48,419 bases of DNA. It comes from Chthoniobacterales bacterium. Lineage in GTDB: Bacteria; Verrucomicrobiota; Verrucomicrobiia; Chthoniobacterales; JAATET01. Of the stretch, positions 2,316 to 25,101 are shown in pieces. Location of the stretch: the NCBI GenBank assembly GCA_036569045.1, contig DATCRI010000062.1, forward strand, positions 1-48,419, read 5' to 3'. Every line of letters begins with the position of its first letter. Position 1 is the stretch's first letter. The translations under genes were made by a program, and so were the position numbers. The notes beneath the pieces were generated by a model. It was given only the letters and a program-made list of their open reading frames with translations, searched no databases and was not told the origin of the DNA.

Positions 2316-2936
2316 ATGGGCTGCCAGATTGTGGATCATCCGTTGGTGCGTGCGAAACTGACCGTGCTGCGCGATGCGGCGACGCCCTTGCAAGGTTTTC
2401 GCGATGCGTTGCACGAGTTGAGCCTCCTCGTGGGTTACGAGGCGCTCCGCGATCTCGAAGAAGAGACGTTCACCGTTCCCACGCCCCTGCAGCCCGCCCG
2501 GGGAGCGCGCATTCGCGACGCCATCTTCCTCATGCCGATCCTCCGCGCAGGTCTGGGCATGGCCGAGGCGCTCTCGGAATTGCTGCCCGATGCCCCCGTC
2601 GGCCACATCGGCATGTTTCGCGACGAACTCACGCTCGAGCCACGGCCCTACTACCTGCGCGTGCCTCCCGGCATCGCCGAGGCCAATGTCGTGTGCGTCG
2701 ATCCGATGCTGGCCACTGGCAACAGCGCCGTCTCGGCAATCGACCAGCTCAAGAAGGCGGGCGCGAAGCGGCTGCGCCTCGTGTGCGTGGTCGGATGCCC
2801 CCAGGGCGTCGAGCGCATGCTCTCCGCGCATCCCGACGTGCCAATCTATCTCGCCGCGATCGATGACGGACTCAACGAGCGCGGCTACATCGTGCCGGGC
2901 CTCGGCGACGCCGGCGACCGCTATTACGGCACGTAG
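2316..2936 (+). CDS. upp: Uracil phosphoribosyltransferase
   Basis: A 206-residue cytosolic enzyme that converts uracil plus PRPP to UMP in pyrimidine salvage. The type I PRPP-binding loop is seen as VVCVDPMLATGNSA near residues 125-138, preceded by the conserved MPILRAGLGM segment (about 73-82). The uracil-binding C-terminus YIVPGLGDAGDRYYGT ends the protein, as in all Upp proteins. Length matches the family (about 208). The ATG at 2316 follows a C-rich leader without a Shine-Dalgarno sequence. The gene ends five bases before the convergent lipoprotein gene, leaving no room for a dedicated terminator. Confidence 0.97.
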   Translation: MGCQIVDHPLVRAKLTVLRDAATPLQGFRDALHELSLLVGYEALRDLEEETFTVPTPLQPARGARIRDAIFLMPILRAGLGMAEALSELLPDAPVGHIGMFRDELTLEPRPYYLRVPPGIAEANVVCVDPMLATGNSAVSAIDQLKKAGAKRLRLVCVVGCPQGVERMLSAHPDVPIYLAAIDDGLNERGYIVPGLGDAGDRYYGT

Positions 2937-2941
2937 GCCGA

Positions 2942-3424
2942 TTACATCGGCGGCGCAAGAATGCGCACCTTGGGATCGGCCTGCCGGGCGGAGCTGAAGA
3001 TCAGGGGCGGATTCGTCGAACGCACCTCGTAACCCGTCAGCACGAATTCCGGATAGATCGTGTCGCTGGCCGGCTCATACACCCGGTCGCCCGAGAAATA
3101 GCCGCGCAGGGTGTATTCGAAATTATTGTCCGCGCCGAGGCGGCCCTGCTGGCGATCCGGCGCGAGCGTCTTCTGCTCGTTCATCATCACGAGCTTCGCC
3201 GTGCTCCAGGGTTTGCCCGGTTCGCGCACCCAGCCCCACATCTTGTAGTCCACCTTGTAGAAGCGGCGGCCGATGAAATAGTCGCCCGGCGTCTCCGCCC
3301 GGATGGCGGCATTCATCGCCTCGCGACGCGCGGCCTGCTCGGACTGCATCGTTTCGCAGCCGGGCAGCACCACGGCAAGGAGGACGGCGACAACGACGAC
3401 GGAAATACGACGGAAGGCTTTCAT
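2942..3424 (-). CDS. Putative lipoprotein of unknown function
   Basis: A 160-residue protein whose first 22 residues form a lipoprotein signal: basic MKAFRR, a hydrophobic core of valines and leucines, and a lipobox LPGC, so the mature protein would start with a lipidated Cys. I chose the ATG at 3424 because it puts the signal at the N-terminus; the frame stays open upstream only by chance. The mature part contains YKMWGWVREPGKPW and a beta-rich region with aromatic residues (TLRGYFSGDRVYEPASDT). I do not recognise a named family. It follows the methyltransferase gene by 35 bases on the same strand and is probably cotranscribed. Confidence 0.78.
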   Translation of the reverse strand: MKAFRRISVVVVAVLLAVVLPGCETMQSEQAARREAMNAAIRAETPGDYFIGRRFYKVDYKMWGWVREPGKPWSTAKLVMMNEQKTLAPDRQQGRLGADNNFEYTLRGYFSGDRVYEPASDTIYPEFVLTGYEVRSTNPPLIFSSARQADPKVRILAPPM

Positions 3425-3459
3425 GAAATCGGGCAATGCAACGGCTTCGTCAGGCAACC

Positions 3460-4218
3460 TCAACGCTTGCGCATGAGCCAGTAAATTTCGCCGGGCCACC
3501 ACGGGAACGCTCCCCCCCAGCGGAGGTTGAATCGCATCCACGCCGCGGAATTTTCCAGCGAGCTGCCCTTGCTGCGCATGAGAAACGCGCCGCTGACGAA
3601 TTCCGTCGTGCAGCCGGCCGCCTCGCCCATCTTGCGGACGCGCTCGGGCGAAAACACGCTCACGTGGCCCATCGGGCCGGCGGTCTTCCGGACGGAGGCC
3701 TGCCGCGTCGCGACGAGGAAGTCCGGAAGCACCGGGAATCCTCCGATGAGGACGCCGCCCGGGCGGATGCGCCTGGCAATCTTCGCGAGCACCGCCTCCG
3801 GCTCGAACAAATGCTCGAGCACGTGCAGGAGCACCGCGGCATCGTAATCACGCGGCAGGTCGAAGGCGGGATCCTCGAGATTCGCCTCGAAGAAGTCGTC
3901 GTAGCCGGCCTTGCGGAGTTTCTCCGTGAGCATCACCGCGTCCACGGCGGTCCAGGTGCCCAGGGCCGGCACCACCGGCGCGGACCGGACAAATTCCAGG
4001 AACTGGCCGGTGTGCACGCCGATCTCGGCGACATCCAGCGGGCGGCCGGCGCGCCCGGCTTCCACGCGCAGCAGATGGTAGCCGAACCAGTAGCGAAGCA
4101 GGCGGATCGGGTAGCGAACGGACTTCGCCTCCTTCGGCATTCCGAAGCGCTTCGTGCGCACCACGGGATTGTCGGCGAGAAAATCGATGTCCCAGTCGAG
4201 GGGCTGATAGGCTTTCAA
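3460..4218 (-). CDS. SAM-dependent methyltransferase (class I)
   Basis: A 252-residue protein with a Rossmann-type methyltransferase core. [14 protein letters not shown] (about residues 82-95) is motif I for SAM binding, [17 protein letters not shown] (about 130-146) is the acidic post-motif with the HVLEH signature of Methyltransf_11/23-like enzymes, and [12 protein letters not shown] (about 156-167) is the RPGG strand. The C-terminal part carries [16 protein letters not shown]. The substrate is not predictable; such genes often act on sugars or lipids of surface polymers. It is upstream of, and probably cotranscribed with, the lipoprotein gene. Confidence 0.8.
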
Positions 4219-4934: not shown

Positions 4935-5419
4935 GGCTGGGCAGTATCCGGCGCGGCGGGCTTTTTTTCAAATAACGAACTGAGGATGAATATGACCGCT
5001 GCCACGCAGATGCAGGAGTCGGCGATGTTGAAGGCCGGCCACGGACTGGCGAATGGCACGTGGAGGTCGAAGAGCAGGAAATCGACGACGTAGCCGTGCA
5101 GCAGACGGTCGGTGAGATTCCCGAGGATGCCAGCCGCGAGCAGCGCCGCACCGAGGGCCATCCACCGGTCGCTGAACGCGCCGCGCCGGGCAAAAATGGC
5201 CAGCGCGATCAGGGCGACGCTCGAGAGCCCGATGAAGAACGCGTTGTTGTTCGAGAGCAGGCTGAACGCCGCGCCGGTATTGTGCCACTGGACGAGCGTG
5301 AAGAAATCCGGAATCACCGGCCGCGGGTGGTCCGGGCTGATGAAATGCAGCACGAGCGCCTTCGTCAACTGATCGAGCAGGTAAAGCGGCAGCGTCACGC
5401 CGAGGAGGAGACGGATCAT
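4931..5419 (-). CDS. lspA: Lipoprotein signal peptidase (signal peptidase II)
   Basis: A 162-residue inner-membrane aspartyl peptidase that removes signal peptides from prolipoproteins. Four hydrophobic segments are visible, beginning with MIRLLLGVTLPLYLLDQLTK. The two catalytic Asp regions are present as GNLTDRLLHGYVVDFLLF and AFNIADSCICVA. The ATG at 5419 is chosen because upstream in-frame residues are basic, non-membrane and lie inside ileS. The start overlaps the ileS stop by four bases (5416-5419) and the stop overlaps the DUF5069 start. Adjacency to ileS is a widespread arrangement. Several lipoproteins encoded in this window are candidate substrates. Confidence 0.95.
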   Translation of the reverse strand: MIRLLLGVTLPLYLLDQLTKALVLHFISPDHPRPVIPDFFTLVQWHNTGAAFSLLSNNNAFFIGLSSVALIALAIFARRGAFSDRWMALGAALLAAGILGNLTDRLLHGYVVDFLLFDLHVPFASPWPAFNIADSCICVAAVIFILSSLFEKKPAAPDTAQP

Positions 5420-8133
5420 GCCGGCACCACCTCCGCGCAGCGGTCGCAGAGATCGTCGTGAGCGGCGTCCGCTCCCACGCTCGGCACATAGCGCCAGCAA
5501 CGGGCGCAGCCGGTGTGGCTCGATTTCGCAACGGAGGCCGCGACCTCGTCACCGGCGACGAACTGCAGCTCGCTGATGATGAAAAACTCCTCGAGCTCGG
5601 CGCGATCGGCCTCGAGCCGGGCAATCTGCCCGGCCGGCGCCGTGAGCATGACCGTGGCCTCGAGCGACTTCGCGATCGTCTTCGCCTGGCGGGCGGGCTC
5701 GACGGCCTGCTGATAAACCGCGGCGCGCAGCTTCAGCCACTCGTCCACGCGCTGCTCGAGGGCCTCGTCGCGGAGCGCGGCGTCGACCTCCGGGAAGTGC
5801 TCGAGATGAATGCTCGTGGTGTGGCCTCCGAACGTCCATGCCTCGTCGGCGGTGAAGGCGAGGATCGGCGCGAGCAACCGCGTAACCGCGTCGAAGCACG
5901 TGCGCATCACGGTCTGCGTGGCGCGGCGGCGCGGGGAATTCGCGGCGTCGCAGTAAAGGCGATCCTTGGTCACGTCGACGTAAAGCGCGCTGAGGTCGAC
6001 GGTGCAGAACTGGTTCAGCGTGTCGAAGACGGTGCGGAATTCGTAGGCCTCGTAGGCCGCGCGGCATTTCGCGATGACCTCCTGGAGGCGGCTGAGCATC
6101 CAGCGGTCGATGATGGTGGCGCCGGAGAGATCGTCACCGGAGAAGCCTTCGAGATTCGCGAGCAGGATGCGCAGGATGTTGCGGAAGCCGCGGTAGCGCT
6201 CGGCGACCTGCTTGAAGACGTCTTCACCGAAGGGCACCTCGTCGGTGTAGTTCACCGTGGAGACCCACAGGCGCAGGATGTCGGCGCCGTATTGGTTGAT
6301 GAAATGCTCGGCATTCATCGGCTTCGCGTAAGTCCCCTGCTCCGACTTGGAGACCTTCTTGCGCGTGTCCTTGTCGACGACGAAGCCGTGCGTGATGACG
6401 GTGCGGTAGGGCGCGCGGCCGTGGAGCGCGATGCTCGTCATGAGCGAGCTCTGGAACCAGCCGCGGTGCTGATCGGTGGCCTCGAGATAAACGTCGGCCA
6501 CGGACGAGCCGCCGAGCTCGGGACGCTTCGCGGTGACGGCGGTGTGGGACACGCCGGAGTCGATCCAGACGTCGAGCGTGTCGTTGCGGCGGGTCGTGCC
6601 GGCGGGCAGGCCGAGCATTTCCGCCCACGCGGCGTCGTCCTTTTCGAACCAGTAATTCGTGCCGTGCTGCTCGACGAGGTCGGCGACCCGGCGGGCGAGG
6701 TCCGCGTCGAGGATCGGCGCGCCGGCGGCATCGTAAAACACCGGGAGCGGAACGCCCCAGGTGCGCTGGCGCGAGATACACCAGTCGGGCCGGGCTTCCA
6801 CGGTGCCGTAGATGCGATTGCGGCCCCAATGCGGCAGCCACGTGACACCGTCGATGGCCGAGAGCGCGTCGCCGCGAATGGCGTCGATTTTGATGAAGAA
6901 CTGCTCCACCGCGCGGAAGACGACCGGCGTCTTCGAGCGCCAGCAATGGGGGTAGCTGTGAAGGTATTTCCGCTCGCCGAGGAGCGCCTTGATTTCACGC
7001 AGGTGCGCCACGACATCGGCGTTCGCGTCGAAGACATATTTGCCGGTCCATGCGGGCATGCCGGCTTCCTCGGTGAGACGGCCGGCGTCATCGACGGGCG
7101 AAAGGATCGGCAGACCGTGCTGGCGCCCGGCGATGTAGTCGTCCGCACCGTGGCCGGGCGCAATGTGCACCTGGCCGGTGCCGGTATCCATCGTCACGAA
7201 GTCCGCCGTGATCACGCGTGACGTCCGATCGAGAAACGGATGTTTTGCCTCGAGGCCGGCGAGTTCCTCCCCGCGCACGGTGGCGACTTCGCCGAAGATC
7301 TGCAGCTCGGCTTCCTTCGCAAAGGCCTCGAGCAACGGCCGCGCGATGAAAAAGTCCTCCGCCCAGCCGTCGCGACCGAGCGTGACGAGCACGTATTCCT
7401 GCTGCGGCGAGACCGCGATGGCGACATTCGCGGGCAGCGTCCACGGCGTGGTGGTCCAGATCACCAGGTTCGCCCGGCCCGCGAGCGGACCGGTGACGAG
7501 CGGGAATTTCACGTAGATCGCCGGGTCGGTGCGATCGGCGTATTCGACCTCGGCTTCGGCGAGCGCGGTCTGCGCGCCGGTGCTCCAGTAGACGGGTTTT
7601 TTCGACTGGTAGACGAGTCCCTTTTCGACGAAGCTGGCGAACGCGCGGATGATTTCGGCCTCGTAGCCGGGATCGAGCGTGAGATACGGCTCGTCCCACG
7701 TGCCGAAGACGCCAAGGCGGCGGAACTGGCCGCGCTGCACGTCGATGAATTTCCGCGCATATTCCTCCGAGCGGCGACGCACCTCCACCGGCGAGAGCCC
7801 CCGGGATTCCTTCACGACCTTGAACTCGATCGGCAGGCCGTGGCAGTCCCACCCTGGCACGAACGGCGCGCGGAACCCGAGCATCGAGCGCGACTTCACG
7901 ATCAAATCCTTCAGCACCTTGTTCAGCGCGGTGCCCATATGCACGTCGCCGTTCGCAAAGGGAGGACCGTCGTGCAGCACGAAGAGCGGCGCATCGGCGC
8001 GGGCGGCCTGAATCTGCTCGTAAAGCCTGGCTGCCTCCCATTTCGCAAGCATCTCCGGCTCGCGGGTCGCAAGGCCCGCCTTCATCGGAAAATCGGTCTT
8101 CGGCAGGTTCAGCGTGTTCTTGTAGTCGCTCAT
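5416..8133 (-). CDS. ileS: Isoleucine--tRNA ligase
   Basis: A 905-residue class I aminoacyl-tRNA synthetase that charges tRNA-Ile. The HIGH-type motif is GDVHMG near residues 62-67 after the hallmark LHDGPPFANG. The KMSKS motif is KVSKS near residues 593-597. WDCHGLPIE and the editing-domain motif TTTPWTLPANVAI are present. The C-terminus has the zinc-binding pair CARCWRY (about 872) and CDRCAEV seen in the eubacterial type. The ATG at 8133 (MSDYKNTLNLPKTDFPM) fits the family start better than an upstream GTG at 8157. It is the first gene of the operon with lspA and the DUF5069 gene. Confidence 0.98.
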   Translation of the reverse strand: MSDYKNTLNLPKTDFPMKAGLATREPEMLAKWEAARLYEQIQAARADAPLFVLHDGPPFANGDVHMGTALNKVLKDLIVKSRSMLGFRAPFVPGWDCHGLPIEFKVVKESRGLSPVEVRRRSEEYARKFIDVQRGQFRRLGVFGTWDEPYLTLDPGYEAEIIRAFASFVEKGLVYQSKKPVYWSTGAQTALAEAEVEYADRTDPAIYVKFPLVTGPLAGRANLVIWTTTPWTLPANVAIAVSPQQEYVLVTLGRDGWAEDFFIARPLLEAFAKEAELQIFGEVATVRGEELAGLEAKHPFLDRTSRVITADFVTMDTGTGQVHIAPGHGADDYIAGRQHGLPILSPVDDAGRLTEEAGMPAWTGKYVFDANADVVAHLREIKALLGERKYLHSYPHCWRSKTPVVFRAVEQFFIKIDAIRGDALSAIDGVTWLPHWGRNRIYGTVEARPDWCISRQRTWGVPLPVFYDAAGAPILDADLARRVADLVEQHGTNYWFEKDDAAWAEMLGLPAGTTRRNDTLDVWIDSGVSHTAVTAKRPELGGSSVADVYLEATDQHRGWFQSSLMTSIALHGRAPYRTVITHGFVVDKDTRKKVSKSEQGTYAKPMNAEHFINQYGADILRLWVSTVNYTDEVPFGEDVFKQVAERYRGFRNILRILLANLEGFSGDDLSGATIIDRWMLSRLQEVIAKCRAAYEAYEFRTVFDTLNQFCTVDLSALYVDVTKDRLYCDAANSPRRRATQTVMRTCFDAVTRLLAPILAFTADEAWTFGGHTTSIHLEHFPEVDAALRDEALEQRVDEWLKLRAAVYQQAVEPARQAKTIAKSLEATVMLTAPAGQIARLEADRAELEEFFIISELQFVAGDEVAASVAKSSHTGCARCWRYVPSVGADAAHDDLCDRCAEVVPA

Positions 8134-14971: not shown

Positions 14972-15460
14972 TCAATAAAAGATCAGACGCGCCCGCTCAG
15001 TCCCCGCATCGATGAGCGCCGCGCGCCGCCCGGGAAAGGCCGCGAGTAACTGCCGATCGTCGAGGAAGTTCAGCACCGGCATTGCCAGCCGCGTCTCGGT
15101 GATGCGGATGTCCAGCGGTCGCGTATCGAGGAACGTGAGGCCGGCGAACGAGCTGCCCACGGGCGCAAAAAGCTCGCCTTGAGTGGTGACGATCTCGCTC
15201 GCCGGCAGCGGCTGGGATCGCACTACGGCGAAGCCCGTCGGCTCGGAAGACTTCGCACCCTCCCCTCGCAGAGCCGGCCGATCGAGCCGCAGAAACAACG
15301 CCACCGCCGCAACCACCAGCGCCCCCGCGACCAGCATCCGCCGCCGCGCGCGGGCTCGCCGTCGTGACCGCGAGAGACGGAGGACCTGCCGCCGCGTGGT
15401 CTCGCGCAGGCCGGCGTCGCGAGACAGCACATCGTCGAGGAGAGCGGGATCAATCTTCAT
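14972..15460 (-). CDS. Small membrane protein, possible anti-sigma factor
   Basis: A 162-residue protein with an Arg-rich cytosolic N-terminus (DVLSRDAGLRETTRRQVLRL, then SRRRARARRR), one transmembrane helix (MLVAGALVVAAVALFLRL, about residues 42-59) and an outer domain of about 100 residues with no recognised fold. Its start overlaps the end of the ECF sigma gene by 11 bases, so the two are translationally coupled. That topology and position are those of a membrane anti-sigma factor, but no zinc-binding anti-sigma signature is present, so the role is inferred from context. Confidence 0.7.
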   Translation of the reverse strand: MKIDPALLDDVLSRDAGLRETTRRQVLRLSRSRRRARARRRMLVAGALVVAAVALFLRLDRPALRGEGAKSSEPTGFAVVRSQPLPASEIVTTQGELFAPVGSSFAGLTFLDTRPLDIRITETRLAMPVLNFLDDRQLLAAFPGRRAALIDAGTERARLIFY

Positions 15461-16073
15461 GGCGCAAGCGGTGGCGGAGTTGTTCCTTCAGCCGGCCGCG
15501 CAGGCGCGCGAGCCGGGATTCCAAGGCCTTCACGGAGCATCCGGCCCGCGCGGCGAGCGCGGCCGTGGATTCCCCCTCGTCGTATTTTGCGGCAAGCAGC
15601 GCCCGATCCTCCGGCGGCAGCCCCTCGAGGCATTCGGCGAGCAATGCGGCCAGCGCATCCTCACGAGGTGGAGCGACCGGCCCGCGGAACCAGCCGGCGT
15701 AGCACTCCATCAACGCCGTGTAGCGCGAGCGCCCGCGCGCCCCGTCCACCGCGCAGCTCCGCGCCACCACCGCCAGCCAGCCCCACAGCGCCTCCTCGCG
15801 ATCGAACCGCCGCACATGCCGGGCAATCCGCACAAACGCCGCCTGCAACGCCTCGCCCGCCGCCTGCTCGTCCCCCCGGCAAAGCACGAAAAGATACCGC
15901 CGCAACCGCTCGAAATACCGCGCATGAAACTCCTCCCAAGCCGCCTCCTCCCCCGCCACGAGCCGCCGTGTGAGCGCGGCGACAGCGGCGTCTTCGTCGG
16001 ACGCATCCACACACCCGGTGACCGTGCCATCGGCTCTCAAATCCTCGACGAGTGGACTAACGGCTACATGCAT
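15450..16073 (-). CDS. ECF-type RNA polymerase sigma factor
   Basis: A 207-residue sigma-70 family protein. Region 2 is visible at about residues 35-100 (EFHARYFERLRRYLFVLCRG, AGEALQAAFVRIARHV, ALWGWLAVVARSCAVDGAR), and region 4 at about 150-200 (LEGLPPEDRALLAAKYDEGESTAALAARAGCSVKALESRLARLRGRL read in pieces) has the helix-turn-helix. It starts three bases after the stop of the STN-like gene and overlaps the membrane-protein gene downstream, so it sits in the middle of a tight cluster. Probable role: drives an envelope or surface regulon. Autoregulation is likely but not shown. Confidence 0.88.
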   Translation of the reverse strand: MHVAVSPLVEDLRADGTVTGCVDASDEDAAVAALTRRLVAGEEAAWEEFHARYFERLRRYLFVLCRGDEQAAGEALQAAFVRIARHVRRFDREEALWGWLAVVARSCAVDGARGRSRYTALMECYAGWFRGPVAPPREDALAALLAECLEGLPPEDRALLAAKYDEGESTAALAARAGCSVKALESRLARLRGRLKEQLRHRLRHED

Positions 16074-17042: not shown

Positions 17043-17548
17043 GGGGTGGGCTGAGGGAAATCTCTCGCCTCATCTCCATACACGCCCGTCGCCGCGAAAA
17101 CCCTCGGATTTTTTTCGTCTGCCCCGACCGTCTACCTCGCCGTCAGCGCGAAACTTCGGTTTTGCCGCCACCGGGAGTTCCCGGTGCCTTCCGAACTTCG
17201 GTTTCGCACCGCCCTCGCCGTCGCTGGGGCCTCCAGACTTTCCCCGGAAGCGACGTCGCCGTCCCGGAGCCCTCCAGATCGAAGTCTGACCCCGACCGGG
17301 AGCTCCCGGTTGCCTCCAAACTCGAGTTTCCCTCCATCCGGGAGCTCCCGGTGGCCTTCGGACTCTTGTTTGGCCCCGCCGGCGGACTCTCGGTCGGCCC
17401 GCAGGAAAAAATCCACCATAATTCCTTGTCGATAACTGGGATAAAAGAGCGATCTTTAATTGACCGCCGCCCCGAATGATGGCATGAGGGCACGGAATCG
17501 TTCGGACCCAATCTGAACGCCAACCAACCACCAAAGAAAGGGAATCTT
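17043..17548. other. Divergent intergenic region, 506 bases
   Basis: This stretch separates the minus-strand STN/sigma cluster from the plus-strand gene at 17549. Positions 17109-17401 are filled by the 42-bp repeat array described separately. From 17403 the composition becomes AT-richer (for example TTGTCGATAACTGGGATAAA at 17427-17446), so the promoter of the plus-strand gene probably lies there, although no convincing -35/-10 pair stands out. I see no RNA gene and no conserved protein in it. Confidence 0.6.
17109..17401. repeat. Imperfect 42-bp tandem repeat array with palindromic cores
   Basis: Six clear units start at 17151, 17193, 17235, 17276, 17318 and 17360; all are 42 bases except the third, which is 41. 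The 42 bases from 17109 may be a diverged seventh. Units share an AAACT(T/C)CGGTTT-like start, a GC-rich middle and a GGTGCCTTCC-like end. In three units the middle is a near-perfect palindrome: CCGGGAGTTCCCGG at 17171, CCGGGAGCTCCCGG at 17296 and again at 17338. The unit length equals 14 codons, and minus-strand reading gives a 14-residue periodic peptide (recurring RELPV), but the 41-base unit breaks that frame. No spacer/repeat alternation as in CRISPR is present. Confidence 0.85.
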
Positions 17549-18253
17549 ATGGCCGCGAGCACCTGGAAATATCTCGACAACCAATTCGACAACGCCACCG
17601 CGGAGAGCTACCGGCGGATGTTCATCCTCTGCACGGACCACGATTCGCGCCTTGACGGCCGAAAATCCGAGCCCGCCATCGCCCCGCTCGCCGTGCGCTT
17701 CCACCCCGTTTACGAGGCCTACGCCGTCGCCTATTCCCAGTGGACCGCCGCCAGCGGCGCCACGCGCGGTGGGGTGGCCGCCGTGCAGGCGCAGCTCGAC
17801 CTGCTCTCCTCGACGAAGGCGCGCCAGTGGGACGTGAAGACCCTCGCCGTGTTCGACTCCGGCACGCCCGAGCACACCGCCATCTGGCCCGACGGTCGCG
17901 GCCCGCTGCAGACCGGCGCGATTGATCCCCGCATCGCCGCGGTGAAGGCCCTGCACACCCGCATGCAGCCCCACGCCGCCGCGCTCGGCGCGCCGCTTCT
18001 CGCCGAGGTGCTCGCCTTCCACGCCGTGCTCCTTGCCTTGCGCAATACCCAGCAGGGCCACGAGGGCGCGAAGGATGCCGACACCACCGCGCTCGAGGCC
18101 GCCCGCGTGGCCACGGCGGAGATGATGTATGGCAACCTCGGCCTGCTGATGGATGCCTTCCGCGCCACTCCCGCCGCGGTGGCCGATTTCTTCGACCTCT
18201 CGATCATCCGCGATACCACCCCGGCCGAGCCGCTGCCGGCGACGCCCGCGTAA
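17549..18253 (+). CDS. Conserved-looking soluble protein of unknown function
   Basis: A 234-residue protein without signal peptide or membrane segment. It is mainly helical and Ala-rich (for example AAVKALHTRMQPHAAALGAP). The N-terminus WKYLDNQFDNATAESYRRMF and the segment CTDHDSRLDGRK are the most distinctive parts. A purine-rich AAAGAAAGGGA lies 6-16 bases before the ATG, one of the few starts here with a Shine-Dalgarno-like sequence. It lies downstream of the repeat array and ends 18 bases from a convergent gene. I do not recognise a family and assign no function. Confidence 0.7.
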   Translation: MAASTWKYLDNQFDNATAESYRRMFILCTDHDSRLDGRKSEPAIAPLAVRFHPVYEAYAVAYSQWTAASGATRGGVAAVQAQLDLLSSTKARQWDVKTLAVFDSGTPEHTAIWPDGRGPLQTGAIDPRIAAVKALHTRMQPHAAALGAPLLAEVLAFHAVLLALRNTQQGHEGAKDADTTALEAARVATAEMMYGNLGLLMDAFRATPAAVADFFDLSIIRDTTPAEPLPATPA

Positions 18254-19030: not shown

Positions 19031-19555
19031 ATGACCCCGGAATCCTTCATCGAGCGCACCCTGCGCCGCTACGAGCGCCCGCTCGTGAGCTACGCCCGGG
19101 CGATCACCGGCGACCTGGACTCCGCGCGCGACGCCGTGCAGGAAACCTTCCTGCGCCTCAGCCGGCAGAATCTCGAGGAAATCGAGCCACGGGTCGCTCC
19201 GTGGCTCTTCTTCGTTTGTCGGAACTGCGCGCTCGATCACTGCCGGAAGATTGCCCGCTTCTCCGCCGAGCCCGTCGATGACGACGCGCCGGACCACGGC
19301 CCCTCGCCCGCCGAGAGCGCCAGCGCGCAGGAGGACGCCGCCCGCCTCCGCCACCTTATCCAGCGCCTGCCCGAGCGGCAGCGCGAACTTGTGAGCCTGA
19401 AGTTCGACGCCGGTCTCAGCTATCGCGAGATCAGCGAAGCCACGCGCCTGAGCGTCTCGAACGTCGGCGTCCAGCTCCACAACGCCATCCAGACTCTCCG
19501 CACCCTGTGGAACCGCGATCCGCTCAAGGACGCGGAAAGCCTGCCCCTGTCATGA
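19031..19555 (+). CDS. ECF-type RNA polymerase sigma factor
   Basis: A 174-residue sigma-70 family protein with region 2 at about residues 10-80 (RRYERPLVSYARAITGD, DAVQETFLRL, PWLFFVCRNCALDHCRK) and region 4 at about 110-160 (LPERQRELVSLKFDAGLSYR, then EISEATRLSVSNVGVQLHNA, the helix-turn-helix). The stop codon overlaps the ATG of the next gene by four bases (19552-19555), which couples it to the anti-sigma-like/VWA protein. This is the second ECF system within 4 kb and is not a close duplicate of the first. Confidence 0.9.
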   Translation: MTPESFIERTLRRYERPLVSYARAITGDLDSARDAVQETFLRLSRQNLEEIEPRVAPWLFFVCRNCALDHCRKIARFSAEPVDDDAPDHGPSPAESASAQEDAARLRHLIQRLPERQRELVSLKFDAGLSYREISEATRLSVSNVGVQLHNAIQTLRTLWNRDPLKDAESLPLS

Positions 19556-21915
19556 ATTCCACCGCCGATCCCCGCATCACCGCCTACGCCCTCGGCGAAC
19601 TCACCGGCCCCGAGCGCGAAGCCTTCGAACGCGAACTCGCCACCTCCACCGCCCTGCAACACGCCATGAAGGAAACCATTGCCGTCGCCGAAGCCATCCG
19701 CGCCCTCCCCTCGGAAGAAGACACCCTTCCCGAAGAGCAGCGCGCCGCTCTCCTCGCCCGCTGCGCCGGGAATCTCGAGGCTGAGGCGCGGCAGCGCGCC
19801 ATCCGTCGCCGCGTCGGCGTTCTCGGCATCACCGCGCTCGCGGCGAGCATCACCGTGGCCACGATTCTCAGCCTGCCACGGAAAACCGCAACGCCCGTTC
19901 CGACGACGCCTCTTGCCGTAAACGCCCCGCCGCCGCCAACACCGGCCGAGCAATTGCCCGCGGCCAGCCCCGCGGGCACGCCGGTGCTCCTGGCCGGAGC
20001 GGACGGCTACGTGCAGGGGCACGACACCGGAAGCCTCGTCGCCCGCCAGCAGGAAGCGCCGCTGAGCGATTCCGAAAGATCGGACCTCGTCGGGGGCGGG
20101 CGGAAAGCCGAAGACCAGGAGAGTGCCGACATCCAGACGCGCGACCGCCTGCTGGCGCAGACGAAGGGACCCGCGCCCCAGACCGCAACCGTGGCCGCCG
20201 TGGGCGCCATTGCCCCGGCCAGCGCTCCGGCAGCAGCGCTGGCGCCCGCCCAAAGCCTTGCCAAGGTCAGACAGTCTCCCGAGCAGACTGGCCCCAAATC
20301 CGAAACTTTCTTCGGCTCCCCGATGGCCGGCGCGACCGCCGATCTGGCGACCGCGCCGCGTGGCGCTGAAACGGCCGGGTGGAGCGGCGCCGTCGATGAG
20401 GTGCGGGCGTTCCGGCATCCAGAGCCGTTCGACGCAGCGATTCGGGCGGGAGCGGAACCCGATGCGGAGACTTACGCGCCGATCACCGGCAATACCTTCC
20501 AGGCCGTCACCGCGGCGCCGCTGTCGACATTCTCGATCGACGTCGATACCGCGAGTTACTCGAACGTCCGTCGCTTCCTCGTCAGCGGCCAGCAGCCGCC
20601 GGCGGACGCCGTGCGCCTCGAGGAGCTCATCAACTACTTCCCTTACAATCTGCCGCAGCCGAAGGACTCGGCGCCGTTCTCCATCACCACGGAGGTCAGC
20701 CATGCCCCATGGAACGAGCGGCATCTTCTCGCCCGCATCGCGCTGAAAGGTCGCGACGTCGCGGTGGATAAGCTCCCGCCGAGCAACCTCGTCTTCCTCG
20801 TCGATGTATCGGGCTCGATGAAAGCCGACGACAAGCTCCCGCTGCTCAAGCGCTCGCTGCGCGAACTCGTCCAGCGCCTCACGCCCCTCGACCGCGTCGC
20901 CATCGCGGTCTACGCCGGCTCCTCCGGCCTTGCGTTGCCCTCGACCAGCGGCGAAGACCAATCGCGCATCCTCGCGGCCATCGACCGCCTCGAGGCCGGC
21001 GGCTCGACGAACGGCGCATCGGGCATCCGGCTCGCCTACGAAACCGCCCGGGAAAACTTCCTCAAGGAAGGCAACAACCGCGTGATCCTGTGCACCGACG
21101 GCGATTTCAACGTCGGCGTCACCAGCCACGACGAGCTCACTCGCCTCATCGAGCGCGAACGGAAATCCGGCGTGTTTCTCTCCGTCCTGGGCTTCGGCAC
21201 CGGCAACCTCAAGGACGCCACGATGGAAAGCCTCGCCGACAAGGGGAACGGCAACTACGCCTACATCGACTCGCCCGCCGAGGGCCGGAAGGTGCTCGTC
21301 GAGCAAATGGGCGCCACGCTCTTCACGATCGCGAAGGACGTGAAGATCCAGGTGGAATTCAATCCCGCCACCGTCGCCGGCTACCGACTCATCGGCTACG
21401 AGAACCGCCTGCTCGCGAAGGAGGACTTCAACGATGACACGAAGGACGCCGGAGAAATCGGGGCCGGGCACACCGTCACCGCGCTTTACGAGATCGTTCC
21501 CGCCGGTCAGCCCCTCCCCAACGACCGCACGGTCGATCCACTGAAGTATCAACCCGTCGAACCCTCGGAATCCGACAATCCAAAATCCGAAATCCAAAAT
21601 CCAAAATCCCGCGACCTCTTCACGGTGAAGCTCCGCTACAAGGCCCCTGACGGCGACACGAGCAAGCTCATCGAGAAAGTCGTCGGGCCCGAGGCCGGAG
21701 CCTTCGACCGGGCCTCGGAAAATCTCCGCTTCGCCAGCGCGGTCGCCGCCTTCGGCATGAAACTCCGCGGCGATGCCAACGACACGCCGATGGATTGGAA
21801 CGCGATCCAGAAGATCGCCCGCGCCAGCCTCGGCGAAGATCCCGGCGCCTACCGCGCGGAATTCCTCACGCTCATCGAAAAGGCCCGGCACCTTCGCGAC
21901 TCCGACGACGAGTAG
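19552..21915 (+). CDS. Membrane protein: anti-sigma-like N-terminus plus YfbK-type von Willebrand factor A domain
   Basis: A 787-residue protein. Residues 1-85 (ITAYALGELTGPEREAFERE, EEQRAALLARCAGNLEAEAR) resemble the cytosolic part of anti-sigma factors but lack the usual His-Cys-Cys zinc ligands. A transmembrane helix follows (VLGITALAASITVATILSL, about 88-106), then a Pro/Ala-rich linker, then the YfbK N-terminal segment (FSIDVDTASYSNVRRFLV, about 327-344). Next is a VWA domain with intact MIDAS residues (DVSGSM about 417-422, STNGAS, CTDGDFNVG), and a C-terminal DUF3520-like region. Near residue 677 the sequence NPKSEIQNPKS is encoded by an inserted CCAAAAT heptamer repeat. It is coupled to the sigma gene by overlap, so it probably controls that factor. 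Whether the VWA domain senses or binds a protein partner is unknown. Confidence 0.88.
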   Translation: MNSTADPRITAYALGELTGPEREAFERELATSTALQHAMKETIAVAEAIRALPSEEDTLPEEQRAALLARCAGNLEAEARQRAIRRRVGVLGITALAASITVATILSLPRKTATPVPTTPLAVNAPPPPTPAEQLPAASPAGTPVLLAGADGYVQGHDTGSLVARQQEAPLSDSERSDLVGGGRKAEDQESADIQTRDRLLAQTKGPAPQTATVAAVGAIAPASAPAAALAPAQSLAKVRQSPEQTGPKSETFFGSPMAGATADLATAPRGAETAGWSGAVDEVRAFRHPEPFDAAIRAGAEPDAETYAPITGNTFQAVTAAPLSTFSIDVDTASYSNVRRFLVSGQQPPADAVRLEELINYFPYNLPQPKDSAPFSITTEVSHAPWNERHLLARIALKGRDVAVDKLPPSNLVFLVDVSGSMKADDKLPLLKRSLRELVQRLTPLDRVAIAVYAGSSGLALPSTSGEDQSRILAAIDRLEAGGSTNGASGIRLAYETARENFLKEGNNRVILCTDGDFNVGVTSHDELTRLIERERKSGVFLSVLGFGTGNLKDATMESLADKGNGNYAYIDSPAEGRKVLVEQMGATLFTIAKDVKIQVEFNPATVAGYRLIGYENRLLAKEDFNDDTKDAGEIGAGHTVTALYEIVPAGQPLPNDRTVDPLKYQPVEPSESDNPKSEIQNPKSRDLFTVKLRYKAPDGDTSKLIEKVVGPEAGAFDRASENLRFASAVAAFGMKLRGDANDTPMDWNAIQKIARASLGEDPGAYRAEFLTLIEKARHLRDSDDE
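21580..21607. repeat. CCAAAAT heptamer repeat (4 units) inside the VWA gene
   Basis: Four consecutive seven-base units: CCAAAAT, CCGAAAT, CCAAAAT, CCAAAAT. They sit in the linker between the VWA domain and the C-terminal domain and are translated as part of NPKSEIQNPKS. AT-rich in a GC-rich gene, so clearly foreign to local base use. A nearly identical 28-base block occurs at 25074-25101. Confidence 0.85.
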
Positions 21916-25062: not shown

Positions 25063-25073
25063 GTCCCCCCAAT

Positions 25074-25101
25074 CCAAAATCGAAAATCCAAAATCCAAAA
25101 T
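25074..25101. repeat. CCAAAAT heptamer repeat (4 units) before the cupin gene
   Basis: CCAAAAT, CGAAAAT, CCAAAAT, CCAAAAT, ending three bases before the cupin ATG at 25105. It fills nearly the whole 42-base gap between the GH88 and cupin genes, where a ribosome-binding site would be. It differs from the block at 21580-21607 only in the second unit. Confidence 0.85.

Follow-up and report, generated by a model that had tools for sequence, protein, structure and literature searches.

The window, by which we mean the whole 48,419-nucleotide stretch of Chthoniobacterales DNA analysed here (contig 62 of a 3.43-Mb genome with 91 contigs), contains a tandem array that is followed by a leader and by a gene of an uncharacterised protein family (Table 1). 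An STN/ECF-sigma cluster had been proposed upstream by a sequence-only reading of this DNA; the ECF sigma gene is present, but Pfam gives no STN domain, even when hits up to E 1 are allowed.

Table 1. Positions of the array, its dyads and the adjoining features in the window
Feature	Position	Strand	Details
ECF sigma gene	15450-16073		upstream of the array
Tandem array, six units	17128..17378	+	42/42/42/41/42/42 bp; starts 17128, 17170, 17212, 17254, 17295, 17337
Dyad A, unit 2	17171..17184	.	CCGGGAGTTCCCGG
Dyad A, unit 5	17296..17309	.	perfect palindrome CCGGGAGCTCCCGG
Dyad B, unit 5	17318..17329	.	perfect palindrome AAACTCGAGTTT
Dyad A, unit 6	17338..17351	.	perfect palindrome CCGGGAGCTCCCGG
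Seventh unit, partial and decayed	17379..~17405	+	CGGCGGACTCTCGGTCGGCCCGCAGG; judged visually from the unit consensus
Leader between array and gene	17406..17548	+	
Gene of the array-associated family	17549..18253	+	234 aa, all-helical model; unmatched in Pfam, NCBIfam, PHROGs and PADLOC

The array of six units with a possible seventh, as described by the sequence-only reading, is confirmed, and so is the single 41-base unit, which is the fourth (start 17254). Specifically, the autocorrelation at 42 bp is 0.49 over 17109-17401, a value reached at this period by 0 of 20,000 mononucleotide shuffles (maximum 0.414) and by 0 of 1,000 shuffles when all periods from 10 to 99 are considered. TRF alone reports only 2.3 copies (17262-17357), because the remaining units have diverged. 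The sequence CCGGGAGYTCCCGGT occurs at 17171, 17296 and 17338, and its matches on the two strands number six versus 0.75 expected. The latter two sites lie 42 bp apart, and the distance between the first two is 125 bp, which is three units minus one lost base. Besides this first dyad (A), each unit contains a second one (B) that had been overlooked, exemplified by AAACTCGAGTTT and GAACTTCGGTTTC, with its centre 21 bp from that of the first; units other than the fifth have it in diverged form, likewise about 21 bp away from A. In the window unit consensus, CCGGGAGCTCCCGG is accompanied by a second dyad resembling CCAAACTTCAGTTTGG, and the two centres are separated by 21 bp. The recurring RELPV, previously read in a minus-strand frame, can be read on either strand, because it is what the palindrome CCGGGAGCTCCCGG translates to. 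In a genome-wide search, the unit sequence was not found elsewhere in the same genome, the pattern count being equal to that of the reversed control.

The downstream gene is a member of an uncharacterised orphan family, and the predicted structure of its product is all helical, with a mean pLDDT of 85. The family is of two types, one of 230-260 aa and the other of about 325 aa with an extra C-terminal segment, which weakly resembles Fn3 at a score under the Pfam cut-off. Comparison of the window protein model with the PDB gave no significant neighbour and no resemblance to a known DNA-binding protein; the S23 four-helix fold (2rld, best VIA row, Z 9.8, rmsd 2.3, 91 residues) lies within helical-bundle noise. 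Additionally, the gene matches no Pfam toxin family, no initiator or partition Pfam domain was seen in it, which leaves room for a novel adaptor, and a phage, plasmid or viral origin of the family was rejected, no homologue being found there.

A first search for relatives of this gene in 57 genomes returned nine matching places, including the window's own, with relatives in two other genomes. When the loci then fetched were scanned for periodicity of any length, the strongest periodicities were of 42 bp and lay upstream of the relatives. Later homologues were picked by protein alone (L060-L064, 16 loci from named Verrucomicrobiota genomes and a class-wide search). In 32 of 34 distinct Verrucomicrobiota loci whose gene is complete or almost complete, the weak arrays of L069, L072, L089, L092 and L096 included, a 41/42-bp array lies just upstream of the gene; among the loci fetched after the hypothesis had been formed, it adjoins the gene in 14 of 16. 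The arrays upstream of family genes have three to nine contiguous units. The two array-less loci, L065 (first gene) and L066, retain gene and leader, and therefore the array is either not strictly required or losable. As background, 245 kb of window and fetched sequence was divided into 408 blocks of 600 bp, of which a single one passed the periodicity threshold, with a 12-bp repeat, and none held a genuine 41/42-bp array. Taken together, these findings make it close to certain that array and gene form one conserved module. This module is apparently undescribed: it matches no family tested here, and literature searches on such arrays and on near systems yielded no account of it. The divergent promoter region in which the array had been placed is incidental, because the array accompanies the downstream gene across homologous loci, where the neighbours upstream lie on either strand.

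Among 34 arrays, the period is 42 bp in 24 and 41 bp in 10, with no other lengths; on the protein tree, whose two deepest clades lie far apart, at least three switches between the labels 41 and 42 are seen. The unit sequence itself turns over rapidly. Unit identity is 0.78 where protein identity exceeds 80% and 0.50 where it is 60-80%, and it is near the shuffled level below about 60%. At L072, L073 and L075, apparently one orthologous locus, genes and flanks align at 67-79%, and BLAST finds no match between the three arrays. No consensus covers all 34 arrays; TTCGGA/TCCGAA, a motif common to some of them, occurs in 9 of 34 units versus 0.6 expected. The sequence-only reading had held that a consensus found only here, together with a spacing lost in close relatives, would speak against the array. 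The sequence is indeed found only here, but the second part is contradicted, because the spacing is the conserved feature.

The symmetry of the units is likewise retained. Dyad strength exceeds that of shuffled units (Fisher p ~1e-8, with mononucleotide shuffles as the null and units inside one array being non-independent), and paired, compensatory stem changes exceed the permutation level with p 0.003 overall and 0/500 for the 42-bp arrays. In the 41-bp arrays, the dyads are weak and no compensation above permutation was found. Units carry one or two dyads, which in several arrays lie 21 bp apart; the two strongest are spaced by 21 bp in 6 of 25 arrays and by 20 bp in three more. The edge units of arrays are decayed.

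Genomes of the Verrucomicrobiae carry the module as a small, dispersed cassette. For two copies in one genome (L040/L041), a similarity of 85% begins some 75 bp ahead of the array and extends to the stop codon, beyond which the sequences are unrelated. Two in another (L067/L068) show 86% similarity across the array, the gene and its terminator, with unrelated flanking genes. At least eight divergent copies reside in G017, and the window's own genome has a second copy on contig 28, consisting of an array and a frameshifted gene. No empty site came to light in G001-G003, which belong to the same genus, as conservation of the sequence around the window cassette starts only at ~21.9 kb. Additionally, L062, L091 and L100 have lost an internal part of the cassette and kept the array and the 3' end, and the 3' part alone is left in L093 and L105. 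No transposase encoded by the cassette is recognisable.

ToxIN has the same layout, with several tandem repeats just ahead of one gene, and the array could work as RNA in a type III-like toxin-antitoxin; as RNA, the window array folds better than shuffles on either strand (z ~-4). However, a transcribed hairpin should favour one strand, with deviations there of the G.U and not the A.C kind, and stem deviations over 25 arrays are equally often G.U (108) and A.C (109), a lack of RNA strand bias that sets the arrays apart from ToxIN, CptIN and TenpIN. This indirect test speaks for arrays that would work as duplex DNA, with RNA as a less probable alternative. ToxIN loci have a short terminator between repeats and toxin gene (PMC8860590), whereas a simple scan found one between array and gene in only 1 of 27 leaders, with none in the leader of the window. 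The units here form dyads instead of a pseudoknot, and the all-helical protein model, without a Pfam toxin match, is unlike ToxN, which has five helices and seven strands (PMC8860590). The module is thus not a canonical type III toxin-antitoxin, and we judge a type III-like one unlikely. No promoter could be placed convincingly in the leaders, nor a convincing sigma-70 promoter in that of the window; CTTG[AT]C is present in 7 of 27 leaders versus 1.5 expected, an excess that is weak and partly due to relatedness. An identity with a known RNA family was rejected, Rfam giving nothing across the window beyond a tRNA. A coding repeat region, whether a decayed repeat-protein gene, as previously considered, or an N-terminal extension of the downstream protein, would account for a unit of 42 bp, or 14 codons, and for some open frames. 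Stops are present in the array frames, however, none of which stays open consistently, and in the 41-bp arrays, ten in number, the frame would shift at each unit; a coding role is rejected for the family as a whole.

Alternatively, the array might mark where a mobile element ends on its left side and be recognised there by a transposase, either the element's own product or a nearby Y1 enzyme, with the dyads as hairpins for single-stranded transposition. The dispersed cassettes suit this explanation in that their similarity begins at or just before the array and stops at the stop codon or terminator of the gene; so do the deletion derivatives in G443 and G319, which retain the array and the 3' end, and the Y1_Tnp genes that adjoin arrays in L040 and L065 and, by reading, also in L062 and L064. 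Most loci, on the other hand, are without a neighbouring transposase, neither a target-site duplication nor a shared right end was found, the fragments in L093, L105 and L094 are without an array, and the cassette occupies one shared locus in L072/L073/L075. We regard such a mobile end as rather unlikely. The more specific suggestion of a mobile palindromic element such as REP was rejected, since the genome holds no dispersed copies of the unit and a GTAG tag is absent from it. Slippage that makes and homogenises units, with the dyads as by-products, would turn the array into a neutral minisatellite, and both the fast turnover of unit sequence and the decayed edge units would be expected of one. 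Yet the period of a neutral array should drift at random, and such arrays should also turn up at other places, whereas 41/42 bp holds through complete turnover of the sequence, at one position and beside one gene family; a neutral origin is accordingly quite improbable.

We propose, with a probability of about 0.5, that the array is a multi-site DNA-binding array, the cis-part of a mobile gene cassette, whose phased dyads would be bound by protein. The arrayed binding site at every four helical turns that had been suggested from the letters survives in this proposal and gains comparative support. The array would act as double-stranded DNA with its dyad sites facing the same side of the helix, 42 bp being four turns and 21 bp two. 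A dimeric protein would bind the dyads cooperatively, so that several molecules would be aligned upstream of the gene, and assembly on the array would control expression of the cassette or form a partition- or recombination-like complex. As a guess, the candidate binder would be either the helical protein that the cassette encodes or a factor of the host. Against multi-site binding stand the array-less L065 first gene and L066, the weak and uncompensated dyads of the 41-bp arrays, the restriction of the 21-bp spacing of the two strongest dyads to 6 of 25 arrays, the dissimilarity of the protein model to known DNA-binding proteins, and the failure to place a promoter with conviction. More tentatively, it is possible that the cassettes represent an undescribed class of mobile module, in which an orphan helical protein would work with its own cis array of dyad sites, and selection would keep helical spacing and symmetry rather than sequence because array and protein would evolve together, in each cassette, as a recognition pair of their own. 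If the proposal is right, this is a recurrent module not described before, from a phylum that has received little study, and it might constitute a novel type of self-addressed regulatory or recombination system. The module would then give a directly testable rule, constant spacing with variable sequence, and a handle for finding the function of an orphan protein family.

Helically phased tandem sites beside a gene that they may serve are known from iterons with Rep and from parC with ParR, and the array resembles these in its phasing and position. It differs from them in being chromosomal, with no Rep or partition partner seen, and in having a longer unit (41/42 bp) whose sequence is not conserved between relatives. 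With REP, BIME and REPIN elements and their RAYT proteins, it shares intergenic palindromes and, at a few arrays, adjacent Y1 transposase genes; Opitutus terrae, of the same phylum, is rich in GTAG REPs (PMC3733652). Unlike REP and BIME, however, the present unit is not dispersed through the genome and lies upstream of one gene family, GTAG/CTAC is found in 1 of 34 unit consensuses, and CGTC/GACG occurs at chance. The scarcity of GTAG/CTAC (9.5 consensuses expected from mononucleotide shuffles) may be a general avoidance of TA steps. The regular repeat spacing also recalls CRISPR, but the units here are contiguous, with no unique spacers.

Several further observations concern the cassettes and their ends. 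In L067/L068 (~3590-3900), the arrays have the stem GCCATTCG/CGAATGGC in common, and their loops, ACAAATTC and GAATTTGT, are mutual reverse complements, as if the loop had been inverted. In L065, a further 42-bp array (5912-6062) has a Y1 transposase gene on one side and the next cassette on the other, and is not directly followed by a family gene. A stretch of about 60 bp with a hairpin follows the stop codon in L074 (4706-4775) and L077 (4697-4766), which are from two genomes, and ends in both at AACAACGTT, a candidate cassette boundary. An integron attC site was rejected, as the AACAACGTTAGGC string after L074 is without a paired core and recurs at no other locus.

The neighbouring genes are varied. 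In L066, a reverse transcriptase (5225-6967) that matches the DRT defence family Drt8 (E 7e-168) is carried by a 2.9-kb insertion just downstream of the array-less family gene, and in L037 a Toprim/AAA ATPase-like protein (2600-3586) resembling AriA, PtuA and GajA is encoded beside the array. A link to defence was rejected, the family having no PADLOC match and these two genes being isolated cases. Downstream of the window cassette, 19507-21915 encodes a YfbK-like von Willebrand factor A protein (Pfam YfbK_C), and short AATCCAA 7-bp tandem repeats occur at 21569-21609 and 25071-25101. A 69-bp tandem repeat that encodes a leucine-rich-repeat-like protein adjoins the cassette in L038 (203-1147), and 69-bp repeats are also present near L070, L096 and L098.
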